In this document: positions 1 through 36,816 of the stretch, in pieces
How the letters are laid out: each line of letters starts with the position of its first letter
Numbering within the stretch: position 1 is the first letter of the stretch
Source: a virus
DNA length: 52,534 bases
Virus record (IMG/VR): IMGVR_UViG_3300046472_000494
Location: 1 to 52,534 of that record
Direction: 5' to 3' (one strand)
Notes under the pieces: generated by a model
What the model saw: only the letters and a program-made list of their open reading frames with translations
What the model was told of the DNA's origin: nothing
Database searches by the model: none
Program-made: the position numbers and the translations under genes

Positions 1-127
1 GCATCGCGTGTGCGCGCGCGGGTGCGCGCGGGCGCGTTATCGCGCGTCATGCGAGAGCGCGCGGGGGTGCGTGCGCGAGGCCGGCAGGGGGGGAAATCGA
101 CGCGCGACAACCTCGACTGCCCCTCCC
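1..127. repeat. terminal overlap, left copy
   Basis: Identical to the last 127 bases of the window. A length of exactly 127 is typical of a de Bruijn assembler closing a circle, so this is read as an assembly overlap and not a biological terminal repeat. The stretch itself is rich in alternating CG/GC and holds no convincing gene. With 128-186 it forms the non-coding DNA downstream of the leftward cassette. Confidence 0.9.
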
Positions 128-3971: not shown

Positions 3972-4379
3972 ATGTTCCGCGTGCCCGAGGAATGCCGCAT
4001 CACGATGGCGAACCTGCCCACGGCGAGTTGTGTTGCGATCGCGACCGCCCCGCACGCGGGCCTCTTCGGCGCCTTCGTCCTGCATCCGCGCGCGGGCGAC
4101 CCACTCCTCTGCATCGCTTCCGACATCGTGCCGGGCATCCCGTGGGAGCACGTGAGTGTCAGCGTGCCCAAGAGGACGCGCGTGCCGAACTGGCGCGAGA
4201 TGTGCCACGTGAAGGACGCGTTCTGGGACGAGGAGGACTGCGTCGCGCAGTTCCATCCGCCGAAGTCCGACTACGTGAACTACCACCCTTACGTGCTGCA
4301 CCTGTGGCGGCCGGTGGGGATCGAGCTTCCGCGCCCGCCTTCCATCGCCGTAGGGCCGCGCGCCCGGGTGACAGCGTGA
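3972..4379 (+). CDS. DUF7694-like phage protein
   Basis: A 135-residue protein. The C-terminal half has the conserved run of the phage family annotated as DUF7694: PNWREMCHVKDAFW, then CVAQFHPP, then DYVNYHPYVLHLWRP. No function is established for this family, which is widespread in phages of Gram-negative bacteria. It starts three bases after the previous stop, and its TGA overlaps the GTG of the aminotransferase gene (GTGA). Confidence 0.7.
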   Translation: MFRVPEECRITMANLPTASCVAIATAPHAGLFGAFVLHPRAGDPLLCIASDIVPGIPWEHVSVSVPKRTRVPNWREMCHVKDAFWDEEDCVAQFHPPKSDYVNYHPYVLHLWRPVGIELPRPPSIAVGPRARVTA

Positions 4380-5053
4380 CCGATCAACTCGCCCACGCGG
4401 TATCGGAGCACGAGCTGAGAGGCGACCCGCATCGCGTGACGCGCGACTTCGAGCGGGCCCTTTGCCGCTACACGGGGGCTCCGTACGCGGTGGCGGTGAA
4501 TTCCTGCACCGCGGCGTTGCTGCTCGCCTGCCGCCGGCAGGTGCTGGTGGGCGGCGTGGAAGCGCTGCAGCCCGAGTTCGAGATCCCGCGGCGCACCTAC
4601 GTGTCGGTGCCGCAGTCGGTGATCCACGCGGGCGGGCGCGTGGCCTGGCGCAACGAGGAGTGGCGCGGCTACTACCGGTTGAAGCCGTACCACATCTGGG
4701 ACGCCGCGCGCTGGTTCACCTCCGAGCTCTACTCGCGCATCACCGTGCCCTATGGCGGGGGTGCGGTGTGCGTGTCCTTCCACGCCTCGAAGACGCTCGG
4801 CATCGAGCAGGGTGGGGCCATCCTGCACGACGACCCCGCCGCCGACGACTGGTACCGGCGTGCGCGCTTCGACGGTCGGCGCGAAGGGGTGGCACCCGCG
4901 GACGACGACTTCGACTTCGTGGGCTGGCACTGCTACATGAACCCGTCGACCGCGGCGCAGGCGCTTCTGCGACTCTATTCGCTGCCGCGCGAGAACGCGC
5001 CGCTCGCCAATGACGACTATCCCGACCTTTCACGCCTGAAGGCCTTCCGATGA
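4376..5053 (+). CDS. compact DegT/PseC-like PLP aminotransferase
   Basis: A 225-residue protein resembling the DegT/DnrJ/EryC1 aminotransferases that put the amine on C4 of nucleotide-linked keto-deoxy sugars (PseC/LegC role). Visible landmarks are NSCTAALLLAC (PLP-phosphate region), IWDAARWF (Asp that binds the pyridine nitrogen), VSFHASKTLGIEQGG (Schiff-base Lys in the SFHxxK context) and GWHCYMNPSTAAQALL (the NYRMxxxxAA helix). The family usually has about 370 residues. This one is shortened inside and lacks the C-terminal small domain, so activity is uncertain. It is the first sugar-type gene of the cluster and is coupled by GTGA and ATGA to its neighbours. It would use the ketone made by the dehydratase at 6741-7583. 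Confidence 0.7.
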   Translation: MTDQLAHAVSEHELRGDPHRVTRDFERALCRYTGAPYAVAVNSCTAALLLACRRQVLVGGVEALQPEFEIPRRTYVSVPQSVIHAGGRVAWRNEEWRGYYRLKPYHIWDAARWFTSELYSRITVPYGGGAVCVSFHASKTLGIEQGGAILHDDPAADDWYRRARFDGRREGVAPADDDFDFVGWHCYMNPSTAAQALLRLYSLPRENAPLANDDYPDLSRLKAFR

Positions 5054-5343
5054 CAATCGAGCGCGACCAGATAGACCAGGCGTGGGATGCGCTCGCCGAA
5101 CGAGTGGCGGACGACATGGAAAACCAGCATCGCGAGATCAAGGGCTACCGCGAGCTTTCGCGGGAGGAAATCGACACGATGAACGAGATCAAGGAGCGCG
5201 GGGTCGAGTTGGGCGTGCTCGTGGCGAAGCTGCGCTCGATGGGCGAAGGCCTCGACCAGCGCTGGGTCTCCATCGGTGCCACGGACCTGCAGACCGGCCT
5301 CATGGCGCTCACGCGCGCGGTGGCCAAGCCGACCTTCTTCTGA
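5050..5343 (+). CDS. Acb2/Tad1-like cyclic-nucleotide sponge (anti-CBASS/Thoeris)
   Basis: A 97-residue, mostly helical protein with the Acb2/Tad1 hairpin-domain signature: GYRELSREEIDTMNEIK, then GVELGVLVAKL, then DQRWVSIGATDLQTGLMALT and a final RAVAKPTFF. Characterised Acb2 and Tad1 proteins form oligomers that bind the cyclic nucleotide or cyclic ADP-ribose messengers of CBASS and Thoeris, which blocks effector activation. The assignment rests on sequence recall of this domain; ligand specificity cannot be read from it. The ATG overlaps the aminotransferase stop (ATGA). It is coupled to a 31-residue membrane protein. Confidence 0.72.
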   Translation: MTIERDQIDQAWDALAERVADDMENQHREIKGYRELSREEIDTMNEIKERGVELGVLVAKLRSMGEGLDQRWVSIGATDLQTGLMALTRAVAKPTFF

Positions 5344-5438
5344 TGGCGAACGAGTACCGGCCGCTCGTCCTCCTCGCACTCGTCCTCCTCGCCATCGCGG
5401 CGGTTGTCGTGGTGCTGGTGATGTGCGAGACGCCATGA
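5343..5438 (+). CDS. 31-residue single-span membrane protein
   Basis: Starts at ATG 5343, sharing one base with the previous stop (TGATG). It encodes a short polar head (MANEYRP), one long hydrophobic helix (LVLLALVLLAIAAVVVVLVM) and the tail CETP. It is too small for family assignment. Its stop overlaps the next ATG (ATGA), so it is embedded in the translational chain, which supports its reality. It could be a membrane-targeted host-takeover or lysis-modulating peptide. Confidence 0.5.
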   Translation: MANEYRPLVLLALVLLAIAAVVVVLVMCETP

Positions 5439-5662
5439 GCTACCTCGTGAGGCTCGTGAACTCCACCGGCCGCGAGGGGTGGCTCAAGCGCGGCATGGTG
5501 ATCCATCGCCGGGAGCATGCGACGGTCTACTCGTCGCCCTCGGGCGCGCGTCTCGCACGCGCGAACTTCCTCGAGCGTCACCCGGACAGCGGCTACGTGG
5601 TCGAGGTGGTTGGGCTGCGCACGGGAACCCCCCTCCTGCAGCAGGGCGCAGCGCCGCAGTGA
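5435..5662 (+). CDS. hypothetical protein
   Basis: A 75-residue basic protein beginning MSYLVRLVNSTGREGWL. The region to about residue 60 reads like a small beta-rich domain (HATVYSSPSGARLARANFLERHP ends in a helix). No family is recognised and there is no membrane span. It is coupled on both sides (ATGA at the start, GTGA at the end). Confidence 0.55.
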   Translation: MSYLVRLVNSTGREGWLKRGMVIHRREHATVYSSPSGARLARANFLERHPDSGYVVEVVGLRTGTPLLQQGAAPQ

Positions 5663-6003
5663 GCGCCCAGATCCTCATCGACGAAGACGGCACGCGCACG
5701 GTGCAGCTATCCGACCGCGACGGGCTTGTGGTGATGCACTTCGAGAAGCCGGTGCGCTGGTGCGCGCTCGATCCGGCGACGGCCGCCCGGTTCGCCGAGG
5801 CCTGCGCGCGCGCCGCTTACAAGGCCGTGGCGGGCGACACGCCGACCACGCAAGCTAAGTCGCAGGTAACGGAGCAGATCCGTGTGCGCCTGGTCGCCCG
5901 CGTGGAGCTGATGCTGCGCACCTTCGAGGGAGAAGCGCCGCGGCCGGAATTGAAGGTGCAGGCCTCGAACGTGGTGGACGCTTGCATGAAGGAGCTGGCT
6001 TGA
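5659..6003 (+). CDS. hypothetical protein
   Basis: A 114-residue protein from GTG 5659 (GTGA overlap). The first 45 residues are beta-rich (ILIDEDGTRTVQLSDRDGLVVMHF). The rest is helical and alanine-rich, ending NVVDACMKELA. No family is recognised. The coupled position just before the sugar-nucleotide genes suggests co-expression, not shared chemistry. Confidence 0.55.
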   Translation: MSAQILIDEDGTRTVQLSDRDGLVVMHFEKPVRWCALDPATAARFAEACARAAYKAVAGDTPTTQAKSQVTEQIRVRLVARVELMLRTFEGEAPRPELKVQASNVVDACMKELA

Positions 6004-6164
6004 AGCTCTGGATTACGTGGAATGTGAAACCGCCAGCGAGTGCGCGATGGTGGCGCCTCGGGCGCCTGGTCTTCGCGGTGAAGTCCGAGAAGACGAGGAT
6101 TACGCCGAGGCAGATCGGCGCGGAAGCCATCGGGGCGTTTGAAGCAAAACGCGATCGACCGTGA
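6000..6164 (+). CDS. small basic hypothetical protein
   Basis: A 54-residue ORF. TTG 6000-6002 overlaps the previous stop as TTGA, the same rare-start junction seen at 810-813. The product (MKLWITWNVKPPASARWWRLG then a basic helical part) is Trp- and Arg-rich. Its own stop overlaps the GTG of the cytidylyltransferase (GTGA). Function is unknown. Confidence 0.5.
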   Translation: MKLWITWNVKPPASARWWRLGRLVFAVKSEKTRITPRQIGAEAIGAFEAKRDRP

Positions 6165-6748
6165 AAATCTGCGTCATCCCCGCGAGATGTGGGTCGGTTC
6201 GCATTCCCGGCAAGAACATCCGCGCTTTCCACGGCAAGCCCATCATCGCGTATTCCATCGAGTGCGCGCGCGATACCGGCGTCTTCGACCGCGTGATCGT
6301 GTCGACCGACGACGTGGCGACCGCCGACGTGGCGAGGAGCTTCGGGGCCGAGCCGATGATGCGACCGCCCGGCTGGGACGACATCGGCACGCAGGAAGTG
6401 GGTGCGCGCGTGGCCGAGGCCGTCGCCACGCGCGAGATGATCCCGCTCTACGTGTGCGTGCTGTACGCGACGTGCCCGCTCTTGAGGCCGTCCGACCTGA
6501 TGGACGGACTCCTGCTGATGCGCACGACCGAGGCCACCTTCGCCTTCGCGGTGGGCCGCGAGCCGCTGCGCGACGCCGGCGCCTTCTACTGGGGACGCGG
6601 CTGGGCGTACATCGCGCGCGAGCCGCTCATCGGGACCAGGACCGCGCTGGTGCCGCTGCCCGAGGACCGGGTGTGCGACATCAACACCGAGAGCGACTGG
6701 CAGCGCGCCGAGCGCATGTATGCCGCGCTCATTGCGACGAATGCGTAG
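6161..6748 (+). CDS. PseF-like CMP-nonulosonate cytidylyltransferase
   Basis: A 195-residue protein of the CMP-sugar (NeuA/PseF/LegF) synthetase family, which uses CTP to activate a nonulosonic acid before transfer. The N-terminal nucleotide loop reads IPARCGSVRIPGKNI (family usual IPARGGSxxIPxKNI, so one Gly is Cys here). The next motifs fit PseF well: GKPIIAYSIECARDTGVFD, RVIVSTDD, YATCPLLRPSDL and the closing CDINTESDWQRAE (family IDTxxDWxxAE). It is slightly shorter than the usual 225-235 residues. The GTG start overlaps the previous stop; the end overlaps the dehydratase start by eight bases. Confidence 0.85.
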   Translation: MKICVIPARCGSVRIPGKNIRAFHGKPIIAYSIECARDTGVFDRVIVSTDDVATADVARSFGAEPMMRPPGWDDIGTQEVGARVAEAVATREMIPLYVCVLYATCPLLRPSDLMDGLLLMRTTEATFAFAVGREPLRDAGAFYWGRGWAYIAREPLIGTRTALVPLPEDRVCDINTESDWQRAERMYAALIATNA

Positions 6749-7583
6749 CGTGCTCCTGACAGGTGGCTCTGGTTACTTCGGCCGCGCCTTCACGCGCCGG
6801 CTGCTGGCGGGCGACAAGGTGGAGCGCATCTGCATCTTCTCCCGCTGCGAGCACCGCCAGGCGGCGATGCGCGAGGCATTCGCGGGCAACGAGCGACTGC
6901 GCTTCTTCGTGGGTGACGTGCGCGACCGCGACCGGCTCGTGCGCGCGATGGAAGGTGTGGACGTCGTGGTGCACGCCGCGGCGCTGAAGCGGATCGAGGT
7001 GGGCTACTACAACCCCGACGAGATGGTGAAGACCAACGTGGGCGGGACCATGAACGTGATCGACGCCGCGATCGCGACCTCCACCGTGCATTCGATGGTG
7101 CTCCTCTCCTCGGACAAGGCCTTCGAGCCGGTGAGCGCGTACGGGCAGTCGAAGGCGCTCGCCGAGTCGCTCGTGCTCGCGGCCAACCGCACGCACGGCG
7201 GCCGGCGGCCGCGCTTCTCCACGACCCGCTACGGCAACGTCGTGTGCTCGACCGGCTCCGTGATCCCGCGGTGGCGCGAGTTCATCGCACGCGGCGAAGC
7301 GGTGCCAGTGACGGATCCGGAATCGACGCGCTTCTGGATGACGGTGGACGAGGCGGTGGACCTGGTGCTGGACACCATCGAGCGCATGCCGCCCGAGCCC
7401 GCCATTCCGGACCTTCCCGCCTTCTGCCTGGGCGACCTCGCCGAGGCGCTCGGCGCCACGATGCGCGTGACGGGCTTGACCGCCTTCGAGAAGCGCCACG
7501 AGTCGATGCGCGCGGGGCTTTCCAGCGACACGGCGCGGCGCCTCACCGTGCCGGAACTGCGCGAAAGGCTCGCCCATGTCTGA
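6741..7583 (+). CDS. PseB-like NAD(P)-dependent UDP-GlcNAc 4,6-dehydratase
   Basis: A 280-residue extended short-chain dehydrogenase. It has the Rossmann motif TGGSGYFG at residues 7-14, the PseB/FlaA1-type substrate core (VHAAALKRIEVGYYNPDEM) and the catalytic LSSDKAFEPVSAYGQSK with the YxxxK pair. Inverting 4,6-dehydratases of this group turn UDP-GlcNAc into the 4-keto-6-deoxy-L-ido sugar, the first step towards pseudaminic acid. Specificity is inferred from these motifs and the neighbours. I chose ATG 6741 (MRSVLLTGG); an in-frame start seven codons earlier lies inside the previous gene. It is about 50 residues shorter than characterised PseB. Confidence 0.82.
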   Translation: MRSVLLTGGSGYFGRAFTRRLLAGDKVERICIFSRCEHRQAAMREAFAGNERLRFFVGDVRDRDRLVRAMEGVDVVVHAAALKRIEVGYYNPDEMVKTNVGGTMNVIDAAIATSTVHSMVLLSSDKAFEPVSAYGQSKALAESLVLAANRTHGGRRPRFSTTRYGNVVCSTGSVIPRWREFIARGEAVPVTDPESTRFWMTVDEAVDLVLDTIERMPPEPAIPDLPAFCLGDLAEALGATMRVTGLTAFEKRHESMRAGLSSDTARRLTVPELRERLAHV

Positions 7584-8172
7584 GCACGAGCGCTTCTGGG
7601 CGGGCGATTTCGGCATCGCCTATGCGCTGCGGAACATGAAGGTGGACTGGATGGCGCGGCGCTCGTTCTGGGAGCTCGTGCTCGAGCGCACGCGGGCCTC
7701 CCGCGTGCTCGAGGTGGGCTGCGGCGCGGGCTGGAACCTGCTCGCCATCCGCGACGTGGACGCACGCGTGCGCGCCATCGGAGTCGACGTGAACCTGGTG
7801 GCGCTGGACATGGCGCACGACGCGGGCGTGGATGCGATCGAGCTGGCCGCGGCGCAGGTCGCCAGCCGCTGGCCGCTGGCCTTCGACCTCGCGTTCACCG
7901 CGGGGGTGCTCATCCACGTGCCGCCCGCGGAGCTCGCCGCCACGATGGCCTCCATCGTCGCGGCCTCGCGCCGCTGGGTGCTCGCGATCGAGTACGAGGC
8001 CGCCACCGAGGAGGAGGTGCCTTACCGCGGCCACGCCGAGCGGCTGTGGCGCCGCCCCTTCGGGCTTCTCTACGAGGCGATGGGCATGGAGCTCGAGGAT
8101 AGCGGGGGCCTCGAGCGCGGCGACGGCTTCGATTCGTGCACGTGGTGGCTCCTGAGGAAACCCGAACCATGA
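7576..8172 (+). CDS. pseudaminic-acid-associated SAM methyltransferase
   Basis: A 198-residue class I methyltransferase. The SAM motif is VLEVGCGAGWNL (residues about 43-54). Its pattern matches the pseudaminic acid biosynthesis-associated methylases (TIGR03587 type): FWAGDFGIAYALRN at the start, FTAGVLIHVPP in the middle, IEYEAATEEEVPYRGHAERL, and a C-terminal SCTWWLLRK. The acceptor in this family is not established to my knowledge; context argues for methylating the nonulosonic acid or its precursor. It overlaps the dehydratase by eight bases and the amidotransferase as ATGA. Confidence 0.85.
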   Translation: MSEHERFWAGDFGIAYALRNMKVDWMARRSFWELVLERTRASRVLEVGCGAGWNLLAIRDVDARVRAIGVDVNLVALDMAHDAGVDAIELAAAQVASRWPLAFDLAFTAGVLIHVPPAELAATMASIVAASRRWVLAIEYEAATEEEVPYRGHAERLWRRPFGLLYEAMGMELEDSGGLERGDGFDSCTWWLLRKPEP

Positions 8173-9278
8173 ACCGCTGCAAGCTCTGCGTCATACCCGA
8201 CACGAGGCCGGACACGGCCTTCGTGGACGGCGTGTGCTCGGCCTGCCTCACGGCGGCGAAGCGCCCGGACATCGACTGGCGGGGCCGGCGCCGCGCGCTG
8301 GAAGACCTCCTCGAGCGCCACCGCAACCCGTCGGGCTTCGACTGCATCGTGGCCTCCTCGGGCGGGAAGGACTCGACCTTCCAGGCGCTGAAGCTCCTCG
8401 AGCTCGGCGCGCGGCCGCTCGTGGTGACGGCGACCACGTGCATGCTGACGCCGATGGGACGCGCGAACATCGACAACCTCGCGCGCTTCGCGACGACGAT
8501 CGAGGTGACGCCGAACGTGCGCACGCGCGCGATCCTCAATCGGCTGGGCCTGTACCTGGTGGGCGACATCTCCTGGCCCGAGCACGTCTCCATCTTCACG
8601 ACACCCTTCCGCGCGGCGGTCCAGCTCGGCATCCCGCTCATCTTCTACGGCGAGAACCCGCAGGCGCAGTACGGCGGGCCGCCAGGGGCCGAGGAGGCGA
8701 GGACGATGACGCGCCGCTGGGTGGCCGAGTTCGGCGGCTTCCTGGGGCTGCGCCCCGCCGACCTCATCGGCGAAAGCGACATCACCGAGCGCGACATGCT
8801 CGACTACATGCCGCCCGACGAGAGCGACGTCGAGCGCGTGGGCGTGGAAGCGCACTTCCTCGGGCAGTACGTGGAGTGGGATAGCTGGGTGAATGCCGCG
8901 ATTGCGCGCGATGCCGGATTCGAGACGCGGCTGCCCAGCATGGCGAACTGGTGGGAATTCGAGAACCTCGACAACGCGATGACGGGGCTGCACGACCACG
9001 GCATGTATCGCAAGTTCGGCTACGGGCGGCTCGCGGCCCAGGTGAGCGTCGACATCCGCGCCGGTCGCATGTCGCGCGAGCAGGCGATGGCGCTCGTGCA
9101 CGAGCGGGACGGGCTCTTTCCGGGGCAATACATGGGTGTCCCCGTAGGGCGCGTGCTGCACCGCATCGGCATCGCGGGCGAGGACCTGCACGTGACCCTC
9201 GACCGGTTCACGAACTGGCAACTCTTCAACGGGGTGGAGCTCGCGCGCCCCCTGCTCTGCGAGTTCGAGGAGGCCTGA
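8169..9278 (+). CDS. N-acetyl sugar amidotransferase (WbuX/WbpG/PseA type)
   Basis: A 369-residue PP-loop ATPase. It has a zinc knuckle (C4, C7, C23, C26), the PP-loop SSGGKDST at residues 63-70 and the family-typical CMLTPMGRANIDNLARF, PLIFYGENPQAQYGG and MANWWEFENLD. Members adenylate an N-acetyl group of a sugar and replace its oxygen with ammonia, giving an acetamidino group. WbpG does this in Pseudomonas O-antigen and PseA in Campylobacter pseudaminic acid. It is followed one base later by a HisF-like gene, its expected ammonia-channel partner. The HisH/WbuY glutaminase is missing from the window, so ammonia must come from the host or free solution. Confidence 0.88.
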   Translation: MNRCKLCVIPDTRPDTAFVDGVCSACLTAAKRPDIDWRGRRRALEDLLERHRNPSGFDCIVASSGGKDSTFQALKLLELGARPLVVTATTCMLTPMGRANIDNLARFATTIEVTPNVRTRAILNRLGLYLVGDISWPEHVSIFTTPFRAAVQLGIPLIFYGENPQAQYGGPPGAEEARTMTRRWVAEFGGFLGLRPADLIGESDITERDMLDYMPPDESDVERVGVEAHFLGQYVEWDSWVNAAIARDAGFETRLPSMANWWEFENLDNAMTGLHDHGMYRKFGYGRLAAQVSVDIRAGRMSREQAMALVHERDGLFPGQYMGVPVGRVLHRIGIAGEDLHVTLDRFTNWQLFNGVELARPLLCEFEEA

Positions 9279-10030
9279 TGGGACTTGCCACGCGCGTGAT
9301 TCCGGTGCTGCTCGCCCGCGGCGACGAGCTGGTGAAGGGGAAGCGCTTCGACGCCTGGCGGTCGGTCGGCCACGTGCTGCAGGCGGCCCACGTGCATGCC
9401 GCTCGCGGCGTGGACGAGCTCGTCGTGCTCGACATCGCGGCGACCCGCGAAGGGCGCGGGCCGAACCTGGCGCTGGTCGAGAAGATCTGCCGCGCCATGT
9501 TCACGCCCGTCACCGTCGGCGGTGGCGTGCGCAACGTGCAGGACGTGCGCGACCTCCTCGCGGCCGGCGCCGACAAGGTGGCGATCTGCACGCACTGGAA
9601 CGTGATTGGCGACGCGGCCGACAAGTTCGGGCGGCAGGCCATCGTGGCCGCGGTCGACGCGAACAGGGGCTTCGCGTGGACGCATGCCGGTACCGTCGCG
9701 ATGCGCTGGGGCGACATGCCGAATCCCGTGGACGTCGAGTACGTGGTGAAGATGGTGGCGGGGATGGGCGCGGGCGAGATCCTGCTCACCTCGATCGCGC
9801 GCGAGGGAACGATGGAGGGATACGACCTGGAGTTGATCCGCCGCGTGGCGCCGCTCGTCACGGTGCCGGTCATCGCGAACGGTGGCTGCGGCACGTATCT
9901 CGACATGCTGGACGCGCTCGCGGCCGGCGCGCACGCCGTCGCGGCCGGGGCCATGTTCCAGTTCACTGACCAGACGCCGCGCGGGGCGAGCCGGTACCTC
10001 GCCCAGCGTGGCGTGGAGGTGCGCCTGTGA
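9278..10030 (+). CDS. HisF-like glycosyl amidation protein (WbuZ type)
   Basis: A 250-residue (beta/alpha)8 barrel related to HisF. Conserved pieces are RVIPVLLARGDELVKG at the start, ELVVLDIAA, PVTVGGGVRN, GADKVAI, IVAAVDANRG and VPVIANGGCG. True HisF has an Asp in the first strand (IPCLDV). Here that position is Leu (IPVLL), while the second catalytic-type Asp (D127, AAVDANRG) remains. This fits the WbuZ branch, which passes ammonia to the sugar amidotransferase and does not make imidazole. ATG 9278 shares one base with the preceding stop, and the end overlaps the GNAT gene as GTGA. Confidence 0.85.
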   Translation: MGLATRVIPVLLARGDELVKGKRFDAWRSVGHVLQAAHVHAARGVDELVVLDIAATREGRGPNLALVEKICRAMFTPVTVGGGVRNVQDVRDLLAAGADKVAICTHWNVIGDAADKFGRQAIVAAVDANRGFAWTHAGTVAMRWGDMPNPVDVEYVVKMVAGMGAGEILLTSIAREGTMEGYDLELIRRVAPLVTVPVIANGGCGTYLDMLDALAAGAHAVAAGAMFQFTDQTPRGASRYLAQRGVEVRL

Positions 10031-10491
10031 GGAAGGCAGTCGACCCCAACGCTCCGCGGCTGGTGGCCATCGGGCACGTGCCGCAGGCGGCCGAGTTCCT
10101 CTACAAGCTGCTCGCCGAGCGCCCGGCCGAGGCGAACATCTCGCACCGCGAGATGCCCTCCTGGGAGGATCACCTCTCCTTCACGCAGCGCTATCCGTAC
10201 CGCCTCTGGTACATCGTGAGGCACGGCGACGAGAGCGTGGGCGCCATCTACCTCACCCACAAATACGAGATCGGTCTCGCGATCGCGAAGGAGCACCAGG
10301 GCTGCGGCTACGGGACGTGGGCCGTGCGCGAGCTGGTGCGCAAGTGCTCGAAGCACGTCCTGGAGAAGCCGAGCCTCGTCCGCAAGGCGTTCCTCGCGAA
10401 CATCGCGCCGGCGAACGAGGCCTCGCGGGCCTTCTTCCGCGAGCTGGGTTTCGTGCACATCCAGGACACCTACGCACTGGACCTCGAATGA
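10027..10491 (+). CDS. GNAT N-acetyltransferase, PseH-like role
   Basis: A 154-residue GNAT protein from GTG 10027. The early segment ANISHREMPSWEDHLSF and RLWYIVRHGDESVGAIYLT matches the sugar-pathway GNATs. The acetyl-CoA site is QGCGYGTWAV (Q/RxxGxG/A). The C-terminal ANEASRAFFRELGF closes the fold. In the pseudaminic pathway PseH acetylates the C4 amine made by PseC, and the location between the amidation genes and the synthase supports that job. GNATs vary in substrate, so the acceptor is inferred. Its stop overlaps the HNH gene start as ATGA. Confidence 0.78.
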   Translation: MRKAVDPNAPRLVAIGHVPQAAEFLYKLLAERPAEANISHREMPSWEDHLSFTQRYPYRLWYIVRHGDESVGAIYLTHKYEIGLAIAKEHQGCGYGTWAVRELVRKCSKHVLEKPSLVRKAFLANIAPANEASRAFFRELGFVHIQDTYALDLE

Positions 10492-10985
10492 GCGCGCCCC
10501 GCACGACGCACGCAGAGATTAGAGCGGCGCTCGACTACAACCCGCTCACCGGGATCTTTAGCTGGAAAGCGCGTCCACGAATCAAGGCCGGCAAAATCGC
10601 TGGCAACGTCTCGTCGTGCGGCTATCTTCGCATCGGCATTGGCGGAAGACCATCTTGCATCGTTCAGGCGCATCGTCTCGCGTGGTTTTGGATGACGGGA
10701 GAATGGCCGAGAGGCGACATCGACCACATCAATGGCGTTAGAACGGATAACCGCTGGGCTAACTTGCGGGACGTGCCGAGGCACATCAATCTACAAAATC
10801 AGCGGCGCGCAAGGTGCAACAGCAAAGCCGGATTGCTGGGAGTCGCGATGTGTCGCGACCGTTTTCAAGCGAAGATCCAGATCGACGGCAAGCGTACTTA
10901 TCTCGGGACATTCAACACCGCGATAGAGGCCCATCAAGCGTACGTCGCGGTTAAGCGCCGGCTGCATTCAGGCTGCACGATATGA
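10488..10985 (+). CDS. HNH homing endonuclease with AP2-type domain
   Basis: A 165-residue protein. The core AHRLAWFWMTGEWPRG then DIDHINGVRTDNRWANLR is the HNH_3-type nuclease motif (DH..N..N). The C-terminal GVAMCRDRFQAKI and TYLGTFNTAIEAHQAY form an AP2-like DNA-binding strand-helix unit. Base and codon use is clearly less GC3-biased than its neighbours (for example runs of AGA, ATA, TTT), pointing to recent arrival. It is joined to both neighbours by perfect ATGA overlaps, so it did not break the translational chain. Free-standing HNH genes of this kind spread by nicking uninfected alleles. Confidence 0.88.
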   Translation: MSAPRTTHAEIRAALDYNPLTGIFSWKARPRIKAGKIAGNVSSCGYLRIGIGGRPSCIVQAHRLAWFWMTGEWPRGDIDHINGVRTDNRWANLRDVPRHINLQNQRRARCNSKAGLLGVAMCRDRFQAKIQIDGKRTYLGTFNTAIEAHQAYVAVKRRLHSGCTI

Positions 10986-12037
10986 CCTGTCCAATGATCG
11001 TCGCTGAGATGGGTGCTGCTCACCTCGGTGATTTCGATCGCGCATTACGCATCGTTGGCGCGGCGGCCTCTGCGGGGGCAATGGCTCTGAAACTCCAGAC
11101 CTGGGACACGATGACGGTGTGCGATCGCCGGCTCCTGGCGGGCCCCTGGGCGGGCGCCCGGCTCACCGAGTTGTACGAGCGCTGCAGGACGCCGTGGGAC
11201 TGGCACGCGCGCATCTTCGAGGAGTGCCGCACGCGTGGCATGGCGGCCTTTTCGACGCCCTTCGACGAGCGCTCGGTGGACTTCCTCGAGACGCTGGGCT
11301 GTCCCGTCTACAAGATCGCGTCCTTCGAGATCACGTACCTGGCGCTCATCCGCCACGCGGCATCCACCGGCAAGCCCCTCATCATCTCGACCGGCATGGC
11401 GACCGAGGACGAGATCGATGCCGCGGTGGACGCGGCGACGGAATTCGGCGCGGGAGGCATCACGCTCTTGCGCTGCGTGAGCGCCTATCCGGCCCACGCC
11501 TCCGCGTACAACGTGATCACGATGGCGCACATGCTCGAGCGCTTCGGCACGCGCGTGGGGCTCTCGGACCACACGCACGGGACCACCGCGGCGGTGGTGG
11601 CCACGGCCCTCGGCGCGGAAGTCATCGAGAAGCACCTGTCGCTCGACATGGAGGGGCCGGACGGGCGCTTCGCCACGATGCCGGCGGAGTTCGCGTCCCT
11701 CGTGCGCGACGTGCGCGCGGCGGCCGCGGCCGTGGGCACTGTCGCCTACGGGCCGTCAATCGCCGAAGTGCCGTCGATGGAGCTGCGCCGCTCGATCTGG
11801 GTCACGCGCGACGTCGCCGCGGGGGAGGCGCTCACCGAAGACAACATGGCCGTGCTGCGGCCGGCCGAAGGCCTCGCCCCCGAGCACTACGAGGCGCTCC
11901 TCGGCGCACGCGTGACGCGCGATGTTCCCCGTGGAACACCCGTTTCAATGGGTTTGGTACAAGATGATCGGGTACCAAACCATAATGGTTGTGATGAAAC
12001 GCATCAGCTTGACAGCGATGCTCCGGTTGCGCCATAA
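10982..12037 (+). CDS. PseI/NeuB-family nonulosonic acid synthase
   Basis: A 351-residue protein that condenses phosphoenolpyruvate with a six-carbon N-acyl sugar to make a nonulosonic acid. The NeuB/PseI barrel is complete: IVAEMGAAHLGDFDRAL, AMALKLQTWD, FSTPFDERSVDFLE, YKIASFEI, PLIISTGMAT, LLRCVSAYPA, VGLSDHTHGT and VIEKHLSLD. A C-terminal SAF/antifreeze domain follows (about residues 270-325, SIWVTRDVAAGEAL to VTRDVPRGTPVSMGL). PseI-type features (PWDWH, GPDGRFA) favour pseudaminic over sialic acid. The family usually ends near RGTPxxxxLI. Here about 23 extra residues are read through an AT-richer regulatory stretch. ATGA overlap with the HNH gene. Confidence 0.87.
   Translation: MTCPMIVAEMGAAHLGDFDRALRIVGAAASAGAMALKLQTWDTMTVCDRRLLAGPWAGARLTELYERCRTPWDWHARIFEECRTRGMAAFSTPFDERSVDFLETLGCPVYKIASFEITYLALIRHAASTGKPLIISTGMATEDEIDAAVDAATEFGAGGITLLRCVSAYPAHASAYNVITMAHMLERFGTRVGLSDHTHGTTAAVVATALGAEVIEKHLSLDMEGPDGRFATMPAEFASLVRDVRAAAAAVGTVAYGPSIAEVPSMELRRSIWVTRDVAAGEALTEDNMAVLRPAEGLAPEHYEALLGARVTRDVPRGTPVSMGLVQDDRVPNHNGCDETHQLDSDAPVAP
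11923..11981 (+). promoter_or_regulatory. parS-like palindrome and 10-bp hairpin
   Basis: TGTTCCCCGTGGAACA at 11923-11938 differs by one base from the symmetric ParB-site form TGTTCCACGTGGAACA. GGTTTGGTAC (11951-11960) then pairs perfectly with GTACCAAACC (11972-11981) over an 11-base loop. Both lie in the last codons of the synthase gene, where codon choice (GTT CCC CGT GGA ACA) departs from the GC3 bias of the rest. A regulatory role is inferred. Confidence 0.4.
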
Positions 12038-12038: not shown

Positions 12039-12094
12039 GGGCCGTTCAACGCGCGGCGCGGTCGCCCGCTTCCTTGTCGACTCATCGCCTTTGG

Positions 12095-12119
12095 CGCCCG
12101 CTTCCACGCGGGCGTTTTT
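12095..12119 (+). terminator. rho-independent terminator
   Basis: CGCCCGC (12095-12101), loop TTCCAC, GCGGGCG (12108-12114), then TTTTT (12115-12119). The seven-pair GC stem and immediate T run are classic. It separates the sugar cluster and its internal promoter from the gene at 12140, so readthrough or antitermination would be needed for late expression from upstream. Confidence 0.8.
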
Positions 12120-12139
12120 CATGGCGGAGGGCCCACGCG

Positions 12140-12292
12140 ATGCCACTCACGAAGAAGGGCGAGACCATCATGTCGTCGATGGTGAAGGAGTACGGTACCA
12201 AGCGCGCGAAGCGCATCTTCTACGCCTCGGCCAACAAGGGGCGCATCAAGGGCGTCGAAGGACGCCGGCCGCGCACGGTGGTGTCGAAATGA
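12140..12292 (+). CDS. small conserved-looking phage protein
   Basis: A 50-residue basic protein (MPLTKKGETIMSSMVKEYG then KRAKRIFYASANKGRIKGV). Start ATG 12140 has GGAGG upstream. The pattern of YG-x-K-x-A-x-x-x-FYASxNKGxIKG recurs in small proteins encoded near phage head genes; its role is unknown. Its TGA overlaps the next ATG (ATGA). Confidence 0.6.
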   Translation: MPLTKKGETIMSSMVKEYGTKRAKRIFYASANKGRIKGVEGRRPRTVVSK

Positions 12293-12624
12293 AGACGCTC
12301 GGCATGCTGCACCCGACCGACGTCCTGAATTACTCGGACGCGATCGGCACGGTGGTCTGTGTCGCCGGCACGCCCCAGGCGTTCGACACGCCCGCGGGCG
12401 CGGGCTTCGTGTCCTTCTCGCCCACGGGCGGCATCGACTTCTACGTGGCCTTCGGATCCACGGGCGCCACGGTGCCGACCACGAGTTCCACGGCGGGCAC
12501 GACCGCCAACCGCTCGGTCGCCAATCCGACGGTGCGCAACATCGGCAGCACGCAGTCCTGCACCGGCATCTCCGTCGTGTCGGGATCCGCGGGCGTGGTC
12601 ACGGTGGAGTGGTTCCACGGCTGA
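12289..12624 (+). CDS. hypothetical, Ser/Thr/Gly-rich, likely virion protein
   Basis: A 111-residue beta-rich protein (FVSFSPTGGIDFYVAFG, then a Thr/Ser-rich run, then TGISVVSGSAGVVTVEWF). The composition is typical of small head-decoration or fibre-associated proteins. It is coupled at both ends (ATGA at the start, one-base TGATG at the end). No family is recognised. Confidence 0.55.
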   Translation: MKTLGMLHPTDVLNYSDAIGTVVCVAGTPQAFDTPAGAGFVSFSPTGGIDFYVAFGSTGATVPTTSSTAGTTANRSVANPTVRNIGSTQSCTGISVVSGSAGVVTVEWFHG

Positions 12625-13355
12625 TGTTCCGGCGCAACCTCTTTAGCAGGAGCGGCGCCGCAGTTCTCGACCGGCCGTACCAGATGCCGCGCTTCAACGC
12701 TTTGCGCTCGGCGATCTTCGGCCCCACGCAAATCCTGCAGCTCGGCCCCGTCGCCTGGTTCCGTTTCAATAGCGCGATCACGGTCGGCACCGGGGTCGCG
12801 CAGTGGGGCGACCAGAGCGGCAACGGCAACACGCTGAAGCAGGCCTCGGCCACGTTCCAGCCCGCCTTGCAGGGCGACGGCTCGATCCTCTTCGACGGCA
12901 TCTCGCACACCATGAAGTGCGTGCCCTTCGCCTTCAAGCAGCCGGAATCGATCTACATCCTCTTCCGGCAAGTGACGTGGACCGTGAACCACTACATCTT
13001 CGACGGCGATGCGGCCAACTCGGGCCGCGTCATCCAGTCGGCCGTGACGCCCGCGCTCACCGCCAACGCAGGCGCCTCGCTCGCGGCCGACGCCGAGCTC
13101 GCGGTGAACACCTACGGCGTACTCACCACGGTCTTCAACGGCGCGGCTTCTTCCATGCAAGTGAACTTCGGCACGCTGGTGACGGGCGCCGGGGGCGCAT
13201 TGGACATGGCGGGATTCTCGCTCGGCTCCGCTGGCAGCGGGGGACTTCCCAGCAACATCCAGGTGAAGGAGGTGATCCTTTTCCCCGTCGTTCACGACGC
13301 GCAGACGCGCGCGCGAATCATCCTTTACCTCGGAAAGCTGGGCGGCATTTTCTAG
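12624..13355 (+). CDS. LamG/concanavalin-like structural protein
   Basis: A 243-residue protein. Residues about 30-243 read as a LamG/concanavalin-A-like jelly roll: VAWFRFN, VAQWGDQSGNGNTLKQ, then DGSILFDG, ESIYILFRQV and a closing KEVILFPVVHDAQTRARIILYLG. Such domains bind glycans and occur on phage tail or capsid surface proteins. An internal start near the tail-gene cluster and lack of a signal peptide fit a virion component. It could help the particle adhere to surface sugar; that is inference. Confidence 0.65.
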   Translation: MFRRNLFSRSGAAVLDRPYQMPRFNALRSAIFGPTQILQLGPVAWFRFNSAITVGTGVAQWGDQSGNGNTLKQASATFQPALQGDGSILFDGISHTMKCVPFAFKQPESIYILFRQVTWTVNHYIFDGDAANSGRVIQSAVTPALTANAGASLAADAELAVNTYGVLTTVFNGAASSMQVNFGTLVTGAGGALDMAGFSLGSAGSGGLPSNIQVKEVILFPVVHDAQTRARIILYLGKLGGIF

Positions 13356-13427: not shown

Positions 13428-13901
13428 ATGGCAAACCTTCTCGAGAGCATCCGCAACAGCATCCAGACGTCCATCTACGGGCGCCGGCTGGGCCTCACGA
13501 ACGACTTCCTCGCCGGTGTGCGCGGCACGCTCGATCCCATCGAGGACGTGCAGGCAAGCGCTCCGAGCTCGGCCGTGCCGTACGGCATGACCAACATCCT
13601 CACCTCCGGCTCTTCGCAGACGGGCCTCTTCTCGCTGCAGGCGCCGCCCTCGGCCGGCATTCGCAAGACGCTGCGCCTGCAGTCCACGTCCACCGGCACG
13701 CAGCAGTTCCAGTTGAGCGGGCCGTCCATCGTGATCGGCGCCTCGCTCACGACCCTCGGCGCCACGGTCATCTCGCTGGTGAAGCAGAACGCGATCGCGA
13801 ACCTGCTGTCGCTGTCGACGTCGGTCTGGGCGTTCATGGGCGGGGCCTCGAGCCTCGCTTCGTCCGACGGCCCCGGCGTCATCTTCTCGACGAGCACCTG
13901 A
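13428..13901 (+). CDS. hypothetical virion-type protein
   Basis: A 157-residue protein with ribosome site GAGGGC before ATG 13428. It is rich in Ser, Thr, Leu and Gly and looks beta-sheet-forming (LQSTSTGTQQFQLSGPSIVIG). The N-terminus is helical (LLESIRNSIQTSIYGRRLG). No family is recognised; its position before the Maf-like and terminase genes favours a structural role. Its stop shares one base with the next ATG. Confidence 0.6.
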   Translation: MANLLESIRNSIQTSIYGRRLGLTNDFLAGVRGTLDPIEDVQASAPSSAVPYGMTNILTSGSSQTGLFSLQAPPSAGIRKTLRLQSTSTGTQQFQLSGPSIVIGASLTTLGATVISLVKQNAIANLLSLSTSVWAFMGGASSLASSDGPGVIFSTST

Positions 13902-14698
13902 TGGGCTCGAAGATCGCGCTCCTCGGCAGCGCTCCCTCGAGCATTCGCCTGGCACCCCTCAAGGATCCGGCGTGGAGCATCTGGGCGTGCTCCCCGGGCG
14001 CCTACGCCATCATCGGCCAGGAGCGCACCTACCACGAGGGGGATGCGTTCTTCGAGCTCCACCGCTGGGAGCCGCCCGTCATCGGCGACCCCACGCGCCA
14101 GGTGGCGTGGTTCTCGCCCGAGTACGTGGAGTGGATGCGGCAATTCAAGGGGCCGGTGTACACGGGCGAGATGATTCCCGACATCCCGCGCTCGGTGCGG
14201 CTCCCGCGCGAGCGCCTGCTCGAGCGCTACGGCCCCTACTTCTTCACGAGCTCGCTCGCGTGGATGCTCGCGATGGCGCTGGAAGTGCCCGACGTGGAGG
14301 AGATCGCGCTCTACGGCGTGGACATGAGCGCCACCGAGGAATACGCGCAGCAACGCCCGGGTTGCCACTTCTTCATCCAGGCGGCCATGCTGCGCGGCGT
14401 GCGCGTGTCGGTGCCTCCGGAATCGGACCTCATGCAGCCGATGCCGCTCTACGGCATTTGCGAATGGGAGCCGATGATGGTGAAGGCCACCGTGCGCAAG
14501 CGCGAGCTCGAAGCGAGGCTCGTCGCGGCGCAGGCGAGCCTGCAGGCGGCAACCCAGCAGTGCGGCTTCCTGCAGGGCGCGCTCGACAATCACAAATACT
14601 GGATGGCGACCTGGATCGGCACCGCGTCCATCGACAGGATCGTCGAGCAGATGGCCCGGCGCGCCGACGTGGTGCCGCTGCACGTGGCGTCGGACTGA
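13901..14698 (+). CDS. MptE/Maf-like phage protein
   Basis: A 265-residue protein of a type common in phages of GC-rich Gram-negative bacteria. It begins with a Rossmann-like strand-loop (SKIALLGSAPSSIRLAPL) followed by SIWACSPG, FFELHRWEPP, YFFTSSLAWMLAMAL and EIALYGVDMSATEEY, and ends in a long helix (about residues 200-240). The core resembles the MptE/Maf fold; Maf proteins transfer pseudaminic or legionaminic acid to flagellin. That likeness is recalled, not computed. Lying in the same block as the sugar cluster and directly before the large terminase, it is a candidate glycan transferase or sugar-phosphate enzyme. Confidence 0.6.
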   Translation: MGSKIALLGSAPSSIRLAPLKDPAWSIWACSPGAYAIIGQERTYHEGDAFFELHRWEPPVIGDPTRQVAWFSPEYVEWMRQFKGPVYTGEMIPDIPRSVRLPRERLLERYGPYFFTSSLAWMLAMALEVPDVEEIALYGVDMSATEEYAQQRPGCHFFIQAAMLRGVRVSVPPESDLMQPMPLYGICEWEPMMVKATVRKRELEARLVAAQASLQAATQQCGFLQGALDNHKYWMATWIGTASIDRIVEQMARRADVVPLHVASD

Positions 14699-14702
14699 AT
14701 CC

Positions 14703-16310
14703 ATGAGCGCCGGTCTCGAAAAGCTCGAAGCGGCCTTCGCGCGAAAGACCAAGCCCGAGCTGGCCGCGATCGACGCCGAGCTCATCAAGGCCACGGGCCA
14801 CCTGCGCTGGGTGCCCAACCCGGGTCCGCAGACCGAGGCGTACTTCTCGAAGGCGGACGTGATCCTCTACGGCGGGCAACCGGGCGGCGGCAAGACGGAC
14901 CTGGTGCTCGGCCTCGCCTTCAACGAGCACCAGCGCGCGCTCGTGATGCGCCGCCGCTACACGGACCTCTCCGGCATCGTCGATCGCATGATCGCGATGA
15001 ATGGCGGCAAGGATGGGTTCAACGGCTCGCCGCCACCGTCGCTCAAGACGAAGAACCTCGTGATCGAGCTCGGCGCTGCGAACAATCCCGGCGACGAGCA
15101 AAGCTGGATCGGGCGCGCGCGCGACCTCCTCGGCATCGACGAGGCCACGCAGTTCACCGAGGCGCAGGTGCGCATGCTGATGGGCTGGGTGCGTTCGGAG
15201 AACCCGAAGCAGCGCTGCCGCACCATCCTCGCCACCAACCCGCCGCTCACCTCCGAGGGGCTGTGGGTGATCCAGATGTTCGCGCCGTGGCTGGACGACA
15301 CCTACCCGCGGCCCGCGAAGGCGGGCGAGCTGCGCTGGGTGGTGTCCGACGACGACGGCGATCGCTGGGTGGACGGCCCGCGACCCGTGGAAGTGACGCA
15401 GGATGGGCAGCGCAAGGCGGTGACGCCGACCTCGCGCACGTACATCGCCTCGAGCGTGGGGGACAACCCGTTCTACGTGCGAAGCGGCTACCAGAAGCAG
15501 CTCGATGCGCTGCCGGCGCAGATCCGCCGCATCCTCATGGGCGGCTTCAAGGCGAGTTTCCAGGACGCCGAGAACCAGGTGATCCCGACGGCGTGGATCC
15601 GGGACGCGCAGCGCCGCTGGACGAAGACGCCGCCCCTCGAGGTGCCGATGTGCGCGATCGGGGTCGACATGTCGGGCGGCGGCACCGACCCGATGGTGCT
15701 CGCGCCGCGCCGCGACGGCTGGTACGCGCCGCTCGTGGTGGTGCCGGCGAAGAGCATTCCGCAGGACAAGGCCTCGAGCTTCGCCTTCGGCCAGATCCTG
15801 ATCCACCGCCGCGACCACGCGATCATCGTGCTCGACATGAGCGGCGGCTACGGCAGCGGCTGCTTCCAGCTCGCGCGCGAGAACAGCATCGACGTCTTCC
15901 CCTACAAGGGCGCGGCGAAATCGGCCGGGCGCACGAAGGACAAGCAGCTCGGTTTCTTCAACACACGCAGCGAAGCCATCTGGAAGTTCCGCGAGGCGCT
16001 CGACCCCGACCAGGATGGCGGCTCCATCGTGGCGTTGCCCGACGATCCGGAGCTCGTGGCGGACCTCACCGCGCCGCGCCTGGACATGGAGTTCCGCGTC
16101 GGCATCAAGGTGGAATCGAAGGAGGAGGTGTGCGCGCGCCTCGGCCGCTCCACGAACAAAGGCGACGCGGTGGTGATGTCGTGGTTCCGCGGCCCGAAGG
16201 CCCTGCACACGATGGTGCGCGGCGGGGCCTATGGCGAGTTCGGCGAGTTCGGCGGCGCGCGCCGCCGTGTGCCGCAAGTGATCATGGGGAGGCAACATGA
16301 CCGGCATTGA
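14703..16310 (+). CDS. terL: terminase large subunit
   Basis: A 535-residue DNA-packaging motor. The ATPase domain has Walker A GGQPGGGKTD (about residues 57-66), Walker B DLLGIDEATQF (about 140-150) and coupling motif ILATNPP. The nuclease domain shows the expected acidic residues in AIGVDMSGGGTD, IIVLDMSGGYG and NKGDAVVMSWF. Length and order fit podovirus large terminases of the Terminase_6-like group. The start ATG 14703 follows the previous stop by four bases. The small subunit candidate is not adjacent; it lies across the circle junction at 51588-52157. Confidence 0.92.
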   Translation: MSAGLEKLEAAFARKTKPELAAIDAELIKATGHLRWVPNPGPQTEAYFSKADVILYGGQPGGGKTDLVLGLAFNEHQRALVMRRRYTDLSGIVDRMIAMNGGKDGFNGSPPPSLKTKNLVIELGAANNPGDEQSWIGRARDLLGIDEATQFTEAQVRMLMGWVRSENPKQRCRTILATNPPLTSEGLWVIQMFAPWLDDTYPRPAKAGELRWVVSDDDGDRWVDGPRPVEVTQDGQRKAVTPTSRTYIASSVGDNPFYVRSGYQKQLDALPAQIRRILMGGFKASFQDAENQVIPTAWIRDAQRRWTKTPPLEVPMCAIGVDMSGGGTDPMVLAPRRDGWYAPLVVVPAKSIPQDKASSFAFGQILIHRRDHAIIVLDMSGGYGSGCFQLARENSIDVFPYKGAAKSAGRTKDKQLGFFNTRSEAIWKFREALDPDQDGGSIVALPDDPELVADLTAPRLDMEFRVGIKVESKEEVCARLGRSTNKGDAVVMSWFRGPKALHTMVRGGAYGEFGEFGGARRRVPQVIMGRQHDRH

Positions 16311-16569: not shown

Positions 16570-16879
16570 CCTGCGCGCCAACGCCGTCGATCCCAAGTCG
16601 GTCGCGGAAACCGCGGTCGCGCGGGCCGACGTGATGGATGCGCCGGTATTCCTCACCTCGGCCTACGAGCCCACGCCCGCGGGCGCGTTCACGCACCTCA
16701 CCACGCACGTCGAGACGACGATCCCGACCACGCTCGTGCAGCCGTTCACCTCGGCCACCGCAATGACGAGCAATGCGGTCGTCGCCGCGTGCGCGGCGAT
16801 GGTGGACCAGATGAACACCACGCTGCTGGTGATGAACCGCATCGCCTACACGCTCGAATCGAACGGGCTCACGTCGTGA
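16562..16879 (+). CDS. hypothetical head-region protein
   Basis: A 105-residue protein from TTG 16562, overlapping the previous gene by eight bases. It is Thr/Ala-rich (THLTTHVETTIPTTLVQPF) with a helical C-terminus (AACAAMVDQMNTTLLVMNRIAYTLES). No family is recognised. The stop overlaps the portal GTG start (GTGA), so it is co-translated with the portal. Confidence 0.6.
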   Translation: MDSLRANAVDPKSVAETAVARADVMDAPVFLTSAYEPTPAGAFTHLTTHVETTIPTTLVQPFTSATAMTSNAVVAACAAMVDQMNTTLLVMNRIAYTLESNGLTS

Positions 16880-18504
16880 ACGCCAAGGAGCTGGCCCAGC
16901 AGGCCGACAACCTCTACAGCAAGAGGACGCAGCTGCTGCTCCTGTGGCAGGAGATCGCGCTCAACTTCTACCCGGAGCGCGCGGACTTCACCTACCGGCG
17001 CGTGGTGGGGCAGGAATTCGCCGTGAACCTCGCCACGAGCTATCCCATCCTCGCGCGCCGCGACCTCGGCAATTCGCTCGGCACGATGCTGCGGCCGACG
17101 GCCAAGTCGTGGTTCCACCCGCGCGTCGCGCACGAAGGCCCGAAGGTGGACATCGAGGCGCGGCGCTGGCTCGAGTGGGCCGAGGGCGTGCAGCGCCGGG
17201 CGATGTACGACCGTGCCTCGCTCTTCACGCGCGCCACGAAGGAGGGCGACCACGACTTCTCGGCATTCGGCCAGTGCGTGATCTCGATCGAGCTCAACAA
17301 GAACGCCGATACCCTCCTCTATCGCTGCTGGCACCTGCGCGATGTCGCGTGGGCCGAGAACGCCGAGGGCAACGTGGGGCAGATTTTCCGCAAGTGGAAG
17401 CCGACCTCGCGCAACCTCTGCAACACCTTCCCCGGCAGGTGCCACCCGAACGTGGAGCAGGTGGCCTTGAAGGATCCGTTCGCGGAGGTGGAGTGCCGCC
17501 ACATGGTCGTGGAGTCCGACATGTACGACGGCAAGTTCCGCACGCCGTACGTGTCGATCTACTACGACCAGGACCACGACAAGGTGCTCGAGGAGGTGGG
17601 CATCTACAACAAGTTCTACGTGATCCCGCGCTGGACGACGGTTTCCGGGTCGCAGTACGGCTACTCGCCGGCGACCGTTGCGGCACTGCCCGATGCGCGG
17701 CTGCTGCAGGCCATGACGGCCACGATCCTCGAGGCGGGCGAGAAGTTCACCAACCCGCCGATGGTCGCGGTGCAGGAGGCGATCCGCGGCGACGTGGCGA
17801 TCTACGCGGGCGGCATCACCTGGGTGGACCGCGACTACGACGAACGCCTGGGAGAGGTGCTGCGCCCGCTCACACAGGACAGGTCGGGCATGCCGATGGG
17901 CCGCGATATGCAGGCCGACACGCGCTCCATGATCGCGGAGGCCTTCTTCCTCAACAAACTCAGCATGAGCAATCCCGACCGCGGCAAGGCCGAGATGACC
18001 GCCTTCGAGGTGGGCCAGCAGGTGCAGGAATACATCCGCAACGCGCTCCCCATCTTCGAGCCGATGGAGATGGACTACAACGGCGCGGTGTGCGAGATGA
18101 CCTTCGATACCCTCATGCGCGCGGGCGCGTTCGGCTCGCCCTTCAACATGCCGAAGACCCTGCGGGGGAGCGAGATCGAGTTCCACTTCGAGAGCCCGCT
18201 GCACGACGCGATCGAGAGCGAGAAGGGCGCTAAGCTGCAGCAGGCGAAGATGATGATGGCCGATGCCATCGCGCTCGACCCCTCCAATGCCGACGTGCTC
18301 GACGCGCAGGTGGCGCTGCGCGAGGCGCTCATCGGCATCGGCGTGCCGGCGCTCTGGGTGCGAAGCGAAGACGAGGTGGCGCAGCGCGCGCAAGCGCGGC
18401 AACAGCAGCAGAACGTGCAGCAGACGCTCGCCAACGTGCAGCAGGGGGCGGAAGCCGCGAAGGCGCTGGGCGAGGCCTCGCAGGCCATGAGGCCCGCGGC
18501 ATGA
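16876..18504 (+). CDS. portal / head-to-tail connecting protein
   Basis: A 542-residue portal of the podovirus Head-tail_con type. Typical stretches are LLLLWQEIALNFYPERADF near the start, LATSYPILARRDLGNSLGTML, the PTAKSWF turn, and SGSQYGYSPATVAALPDAR. A Gln-rich helical tail closes the protein (ARQQQQNVQQTLANVQQ). It forms the dodecameric ring through which the terminase threads DNA. The GTG start is set by the GTGA overlap. Length and motifs place the phage with BPP-1/BcepC6B-like podoviruses. Confidence 0.92.
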   Translation: MNAKELAQQADNLYSKRTQLLLLWQEIALNFYPERADFTYRRVVGQEFAVNLATSYPILARRDLGNSLGTMLRPTAKSWFHPRVAHEGPKVDIEARRWLEWAEGVQRRAMYDRASLFTRATKEGDHDFSAFGQCVISIELNKNADTLLYRCWHLRDVAWAENAEGNVGQIFRKWKPTSRNLCNTFPGRCHPNVEQVALKDPFAEVECRHMVVESDMYDGKFRTPYVSIYYDQDHDKVLEEVGIYNKFYVIPRWTTVSGSQYGYSPATVAALPDARLLQAMTATILEAGEKFTNPPMVAVQEAIRGDVAIYAGGITWVDRDYDERLGEVLRPLTQDRSGMPMGRDMQADTRSMIAEAFFLNKLSMSNPDRGKAEMTAFEVGQQVQEYIRNALPIFEPMEMDYNGAVCEMTFDTLMRAGAFGSPFNMPKTLRGSEIEFHFESPLHDAIESEKGAKLQQAKMMMADAIALDPSNADVLDAQVALREALIGIGVPALWVRSEDEVAQRAQARQQQQNVQQTLANVQQGAEAAKALGEASQAMRPAA

Positions 18505-36741: not shown

Positions 36742-36816
36742 TGGTGGGCCCTGCTGGTATCGAACCAGCGACCTCTTCCGTGTGAAGGAAGCGCTCTACC
36801 ACTGAGCTAAGGGCCC
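36742..36816 (-). tRNA. tRNA-Val (CAC anticodon)
   Basis: Full cloverleaf on the minus strand, 75 nt with an encoded CCA. Acceptor GGGCCCT/AGGGCCC, D stem GCTC/GAGC with loop AGTGGTA, anticodon stem CTTCC/GGAAG around TTCACAC (anticodon CAC), T stem GCTGG/CCAGC with loop TTCGATA, discriminator A. It reads GUG, a major Val codon here. It lies next to the integrase, so it may be a phage tRNA or part of the attachment site. Confidence 0.9.

Follow-up and report, generated by a model that had tools for sequence, protein, structure and literature searches.

A short-tailed phage lineage with a near-complete pseudaminic acid-type gene set and a probable transferase, suggesting a self-made sugar coat

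We analysed the IMG/VR virus record IMGVR_UViG_3300046472_000494 over its whole length of 52,534 nt (hereafter the window) and identified eight genes of a pseudaminic acid (Pse)-type nonulosonic acid pathway, together with a gene, here called GSAP, which directly precedes the terminase large subunit gene terL and whose predicted fold resembles cytidine monophosphate (CMP)-nonulosonate transferases. Pseudaminic acid is a rare sugar found on bacterial surfaces. Reading function from gene families, folds and gene order, we propose with a probability of roughly 0.55 that the phage produces CMP-pseudaminic acid in an amidinated, methylated form and then attaches this sugar to an acceptor, most likely a protein of the virion. 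The more specific proposal, which we hold tentatively at a little under even odds, is that this widespread lineage of short-tailed phages O-glycosylates its own virion proteins with the self-made sugar through a minimal Maf/CstII-like transferase, so that the virus would encode both donor synthesis and transfer for a sialic-acid-like sugar.

Pseudaminic acid-type enzymes of the window

An earlier note, made from the letters of this DNA alone, had read the region as an almost complete pathway of the Pse type, tailoring enzymes included. This reading is supported by profile matches, by catalytic residues that are kept across homologues and by a gene order that is kept across relatives. We scanned the proteins with the profile libraries NCBIfam (TIGR and NF models with curated cut-offs), Pfam and PHROG and compared catalytic residues across homologues, in which they were near 100% conserved (36-81 homologues, by gene). 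The sugar genes are open and overlapping where the earlier note had placed them, and all genes given here lie on the plus strand except one tRNA gene. The pseudaminic acid synthase PseI (10982..12037) reached 367 bits with TIGR03586, over the cut-off of 340 and 108 bits above NeuB; its closest solved relative is a pseudaminic acid synthase (PDB 8h2c, E 9e-64), and its SDH and EKH motifs were conserved across 81 homologues. PseB, the inverting 4,6-dehydratase/5-epimerase of uridine diphosphate (UDP)-GlcNAc (6741..7583), scored 275 bits with TIGR03589, below the equivalog cut-off of 408 (334 bits for the relative in contig G003). Its best solved relative is 2gn4, a UDP-GlcNAc C6 dehydratase (E 3.8e-62), and D125, K126, Y134 and K138 were invariant in 46 homologues. 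The CMP-pseudaminic acid synthetase PseF (6161..6748) scored 170 bits with TIGR03584 against a cut-off of 206, the G003 relative 203 bits. PseF lacks about 33 internal residues compared with NeuA, as indicated by a two-part alignment to 9ftb, and its motif residues R9, S12, K18 and N19 are invariant among homologues.

The Pse-associated methylase and amidation genes named in the earlier note were likewise recovered. The methyltransferase (7576..8172) came close to the cut-off of TIGR03587 (109.5 against 112 bits), and its G003 counterpart lay far above it with 237 bits. The WbuX/PseA-type N-acetyl sugar amidotransferase (8169..9278) scored 250 bits with TIGR03573, over the cut-off of 203, has a solved relative in 8wex (E 1e-36), and carries an SGGKDS loop (PP-loop) and CxxC cysteine pairs that are conserved in homologues. 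For its putative partner HisF2/WbuZ (9278..10030), the best model was TIGR03572 with 215 bits, below the cut-off of 300, followed by NF038364 (204) and HisF (202). Judged by the roles of the WbuX/HisF2 and TIGR03587 families, the product would be amidinated and methylated.

The two other enzymes are a compact DegT-family aminotransferase and a GNAT acetyltransferase. The PseC-like aminotransferase (4376..5053) has 225 residues against about 380 and matched PF01041 (DegT, 1.6e-16) and, weakly, TIGR03588 (PseC, 3.1e-10, 39.5 bits against 423.5). Its AlphaFold2 model (mean predicted local distance difference test, pLDDT, 86) is much shortened and matched H. pylori PseC (2fnu, E 3.8e-9), ArnB and perosamine synthase in Foldseek, while Asp109, Lys139 and Ser43-Cys44 were unvarying in 36 homologues, the lysine and the aspartate being catalytic. 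Jumbo, Flavobacterium and Synechococcus phages also have compact aminotransferases that can be aligned over the full length (hits H4-H10). The GNAT protein (10027..10491; PF00583, 2.2e-10), a candidate for the PseH step, accompanies the module in relatives.

A putative CMP-nonulosonate transferase beside terL

GSAP (13901..14698), which the earlier note did not mention, encodes 265 residues with a long C-terminal helix and gave no match in the Pfam, NCBIfam and PHROG libraries. We found that its AlphaFold2 model (pLDDT 82) matched CstII and Pasteurella sialyltransferases in all eight of the best Foldseek hits in the PDB, with a best E of 8.8e-5 and a probability of 1.0. The GSAP stretch TSSLAWMLAMALE...IALYGVDM aligns with TSGVYMCAVAIAM...IYLTGID of 9c08, below significance, and two of 21 GSAP members weakly matched the Maf domain PF01973 (E 0.035). 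The Maf proteins are flagellin transferases that place nonulosonic acids on Ser/Thr, and one of them, Maf_flag10, is reported to be similar to CstII (PMC11339370).

GSAP travels with the sugar module. In the 75 terL contigs that extend 5 kb or more upstream, both were present in 38, the module alone in none, neither in 34, and GSAP with a cut module in three. In whole records, GSAP was found in 16/17 module genomes of the lineage, with a weak homologue in the 17th (G033, a linear contig); G031 has GSAP far from the module, and G034, of another architecture, holds a weak GSAP homologue. On the terL tree this pattern implies 4-5 changes by gain or loss; few independent events therefore underlie the correlation. 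Altogether, the predicted fold and the co-occurrence indicate that GSAP is a probable CMP-nonulosonate transferase. As side observations, a GSAP relative (L012:8395-10017) is apparently split by an intein-like insert just past GVDM, its most conserved motif, and a second, diverged GSAP-like gene lies upstream of pseF in L103:1349-2437, L105, L110, L126 and L142.

GSAP lies in the packaging/head gene run, and so do two small Ser/Thr-rich proteins encoded between pseI and GSAP. One (12289..12624, 26% S+T), a candidate acceptor or virion protein, has homologues in 14/32 module regions; the other candidate acceptor (13428..13901, 27% S+T) has them in 23/32. Between them lies a virion-like protein of no assigned role (12609..13355); it matched phrog_10356, a virion structural protein, weakly (3.7e-7).

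Conservation and spread of the gene block

IMG/VR searches with terL and PseI recovered many contigs bearing the module. All eight enzymes occur, largely syntenic, in about 25 diverged phage contigs, and much of the block in many more. The usual order is PseB, PseC, PseF, methylase, WbuX, HisF2, GNAT and PseI, with GSAP and TerL following wherever the eight-gene contigs extend that far; the window deviates in that its aminotransferase is separated and pseB is placed after pseF. Median pairwise identities among relatives are 37-58% for module genes, 46% for TerL and 48% for the portal, and this resemblance indicates that the lineage has carried the block for a long time. Some reshuffling is indicated by the weak to moderate Mantel co-divergence of module genes with terL (rho 0.15-0.38, against 0.63 for portal and terL).

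Among named phages, no WbuX match (in 50,697 phage records), only distant PseI relatives and no similar DNA were found, and no report of a phage Pse pathway was found in the openly accessible literature. The claim that such a pathway is unusual in phages is correct for cultured phages, among which the gene set is rare, but not for their uncultured relatives, in which it is widespread. Only one cellular genome carried the module, a Betaproteobacteria metagenome-assembled genome in which it sits on a 49-kb contig (L065) with only phage-like genes, so that a search for the host by way of a prophage gave no host. GSAP was absent from 368 other genomes of the class Betaproteobacteria.

Related sets of other composition were also seen. 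Two phages of a third architecture with DNA polymerase A (L170 and L171, that is G037 and G038; 51 and 64 kb) carry a rearranged Pse-type set, PseB-PseC-PseI-WbuX-HisF-methylase-GNAT, with GSAP absent. In L061 (G009), a diverged module has a full-length DegT aminotransferase and a WbuX of 33% identity, and perhaps makes another nonulosonate.

Proposed mechanism and its alternatives

From the genes and their families, the conserved active sites, the gene set and order in the lineage, and the predicted fold and co-occurrence of GSAP, we infer the following reactions, their product and their acceptor. Within the infected cell, the first two enzymes, PseB and the compact PseC, would convert UDP-GlcNAc to a 4-amino-L-altro sugar, which the GNAT would acylate. 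UDP would then be removed by a host enzyme or by one not recognised here, PseI would condense the product with phosphoenolpyruvate, and PseF would activate the nonulosonate with cytidine triphosphate. WbuX/HisF2 may change an acetamido to an acetamidino group with ammonia from the host, which would stand in for HisH as it may for PseG, and the methylase may methylate the sugar. Finally, GSAP would move the sugar from CMP, most likely onto a Ser/Thr-rich virion protein.

Several observations weigh against this mechanism. PseG (TIGR03590), already noted as missing from the window, was not matched there or in roughly 38 related viral contigs, and no HisH/WbuY glutaminase was found in the window or in the 20 contigs searched. 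A search for an unnamed hydrolase among the conserved open reading frames inside the block gave no convincing candidate, and GSAP was ruled out as the missing PseG by its CstII-like predicted fold. Among the five of six Pse steps assigned in the earlier note, PseB, PseI and PseF stand by profile, whereas the other two are less firmly based: the aminotransferase folds like PseC, and with a weak profile match this weakly suggests that it is PseC, while the GNAT matched no PseH model in the Pfam and NCBIfam scans and is a candidate by its position. The likeness of GSAP to CstII is at the fold level (TM-score about 0.41), and its profile searches of the PDB were not significant (9c08, E 0.71). A terminator hairpin lies between the sugar operon and the GSAP-terL genes, and joint timing is thus not implied.

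The main rival, which we consider unlikely, is that the same sugar decorates lipooligosaccharide, capsule or flagellin on the surface of the host, where it would alter receptors and exclude other phages. This would suit the integrase of the window phage, the action of CstII itself on lipooligosaccharide (PMC3426422), and the phage O-acetyltransferases that modify nonulosonic acids of Acinetobacter capsules (PMC6586298). However, the block holds no recognisable flippase or other surface-glycan gene, and GSAP sits in the head/packaging gene run. Moreover, closed genomes with the module include not only three with an integrase (the window, G014 and G023) but also three without a tyrosine or serine integrase (G021, G022 and G031), which indicates that the module is not tied to lysogeny and counts against a purely lysogenic role. 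The integrase-less genomes, the position of GSAP before terL, the Ser/Thr-rich neighbours and the action of Maf on Ser/Thr together favour virion modification, and we hold with moderate confidence that the sugar is most likely attached to a virion protein.

It is improbable, in our view, that the enzymes are real but not self-sufficient, topping up or redirecting a host Pse or legionaminic acid (Leg) pathway that supplies PseG and HisH, with GSAP otherwise employed. The lack of these two genes throughout the contigs searched, the shortened enzymes and the unmatched PseH model are what one would expect from such a role; yet the eight genes stay together across wide divergence, a gene with a transferase fold co-occurs with them, and for this lineage the Pse pathway of a host would have to be assumed. 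Another nonulosonate, or a sugar for DNA, is a very improbable product given the PseI score over its cut-off and well above NeuB, the Pse synthase as closest solved relative and a PseB score far exceeding LegB, and CMP-nonulosonates are not known as DNA-modifying donors. What speaks for such a product is that PseB, PseF and HisF2 fall below strict cut-offs and that phage glycosyltransferases often target DNA, according to work cited in PMC12619734.

If the preferred reading, a self-made Pse placed on the virion, is true, phages themselves both synthesise a nonulosonic acid and attach it. This would bring a new level to the chemistry of virions or surfaces, with a bearing on receptor choice, adsorption and masking. 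As enzyme variants, the compact PseC, the PseG-less pathway and the minimal Maf/CstII-like domain would then be new. The proposal also gives a testable function to a conserved, unannotated terL neighbour present in dozens of phages, suggesting that an entire phage lineage may produce a sugar coat of its own, most likely for the virus particles.

Gene layout and genome of the window

From PseF to PseI (6161-12037), neighbouring genes overlap or abut, with likely starts at 6741 for PseB, 8169 for WbuX and 9278 for HisF2; the sole interruption is an HNH endonuclease gene inside the operon (10488..10985; phrog_99, 4e-55), which is likely mobile. The aminotransferase gene lies 1.1 kb upstream behind small open reading frames. 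One of these, encoding a protein of no assigned function (5659..6003), has homologues in 26/32 module regions. The terminator, likewise absent from the earlier note, is a Rho-independent terminator-like hairpin on the plus strand at the end of the sugar operon, after pseI (12093..12119; 9-bp stem, then a T-run), with -20.5 kcal/mol and z -3.4 for 12085-12125; similar sites occur in some relatives. A scan for sigma-70 promoters found none.

The sibling contig G001 is virtually 100% identical to the window over 5.6-39.8 kb and has the same sugar block at 100%, with only pseI lower (87%). The window at 11105-12579 differs from it at 156 positions, clustered in pseI and the Ser/Thr-rich gene, beside the HNH gene, and for pseI the non-synonymous and synonymous distances are dN 0.086 and dS 0.31. 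This divergence is a local allele replacement.

The window record has identical 127-nt ends, a terminal direct repeat with no strand (1..127, copy at 52408-52534), and is a complete, closed phage genome of about 52,407 bp. A chimeric assembly was rejected, since the record closes through this repeat and G001 and many relatives hold the block. TerL (14703..16310) is nearest to that of Bordetella phage BPP-1 among named phages (41.6% identity). The portal, or head-tail adaptor (16879..18504; phrog_332, 3.8e-74), is of podovirus type, and library profiles matched a major capsid protein (19869..20717; phrog_3437, 1.4e-44) and podovirus-like tail and internal virion proteins. A tyrosine integrase (37108..38307; phrog_1, 7.7e-30; PF00589) adjoins a complete tRNA-Val(CAC) gene with encoded CCA on the minus strand (36742..36816), a possible attP. 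Given the related TerL, the podovirus-type portal and the internal virion proteins, the window phage is, by its genes, of a BPP-1-like podovirus type with an integrase, in agreement with the podovirus-like temperate phage described earlier. In another contig of the set, G008, a 6.7-kb tail region is present in two copies of 89.5% identity (L052:4741-11405 and L055).

Comparison with known systems

The Pse5Ac7Ac pathway of Helicobacter and Campylobacter (PseB-C-H-G-I-F; PMC7910423) shares with the phage set the PseB, PseI and PseF families, their catalytic residues and the presumed reaction order. In contrast, the phage set has no PseG, has compact PseC and PseF and an unassigned GNAT for PseH, is phage-borne, and has a Maf/CstII-fold gene beside terL. 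Acetamidino systems (WbuX/WbuZ, HisF2, AglZ family) share the amidotransferase over its family cut-off and the HisF2-like partner, whereas the phage lacks a HisH/WbuY glutaminase gene. Maf/CstII (GT42) transferases (PMC11339370, PMC3426422) share with GSAP the predicted core fold and the location with CMP-Pse genes, but GSAP is small, ends in a long C-terminal helix and has no significant sequence match. Virion glycosylation in mycobacteriophages (Freeman et al. 2023, as cited in PMC12619734) is phage-encoded sugar transfer to virion proteins, as proposed here; as that citation presents them, mycobacteriophages contribute glycosyltransferases, while the window phage would also bring the entire pathway for the donor sugar. 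Single nonulosonic acid genes occur in other phages, such as pseI in marine phages (PMC6359870) and acetyltransferases acting on Acinetobacter nonulosonic acids (PMC6586298), whereas the window lineage has eight genes and a transferase candidate.

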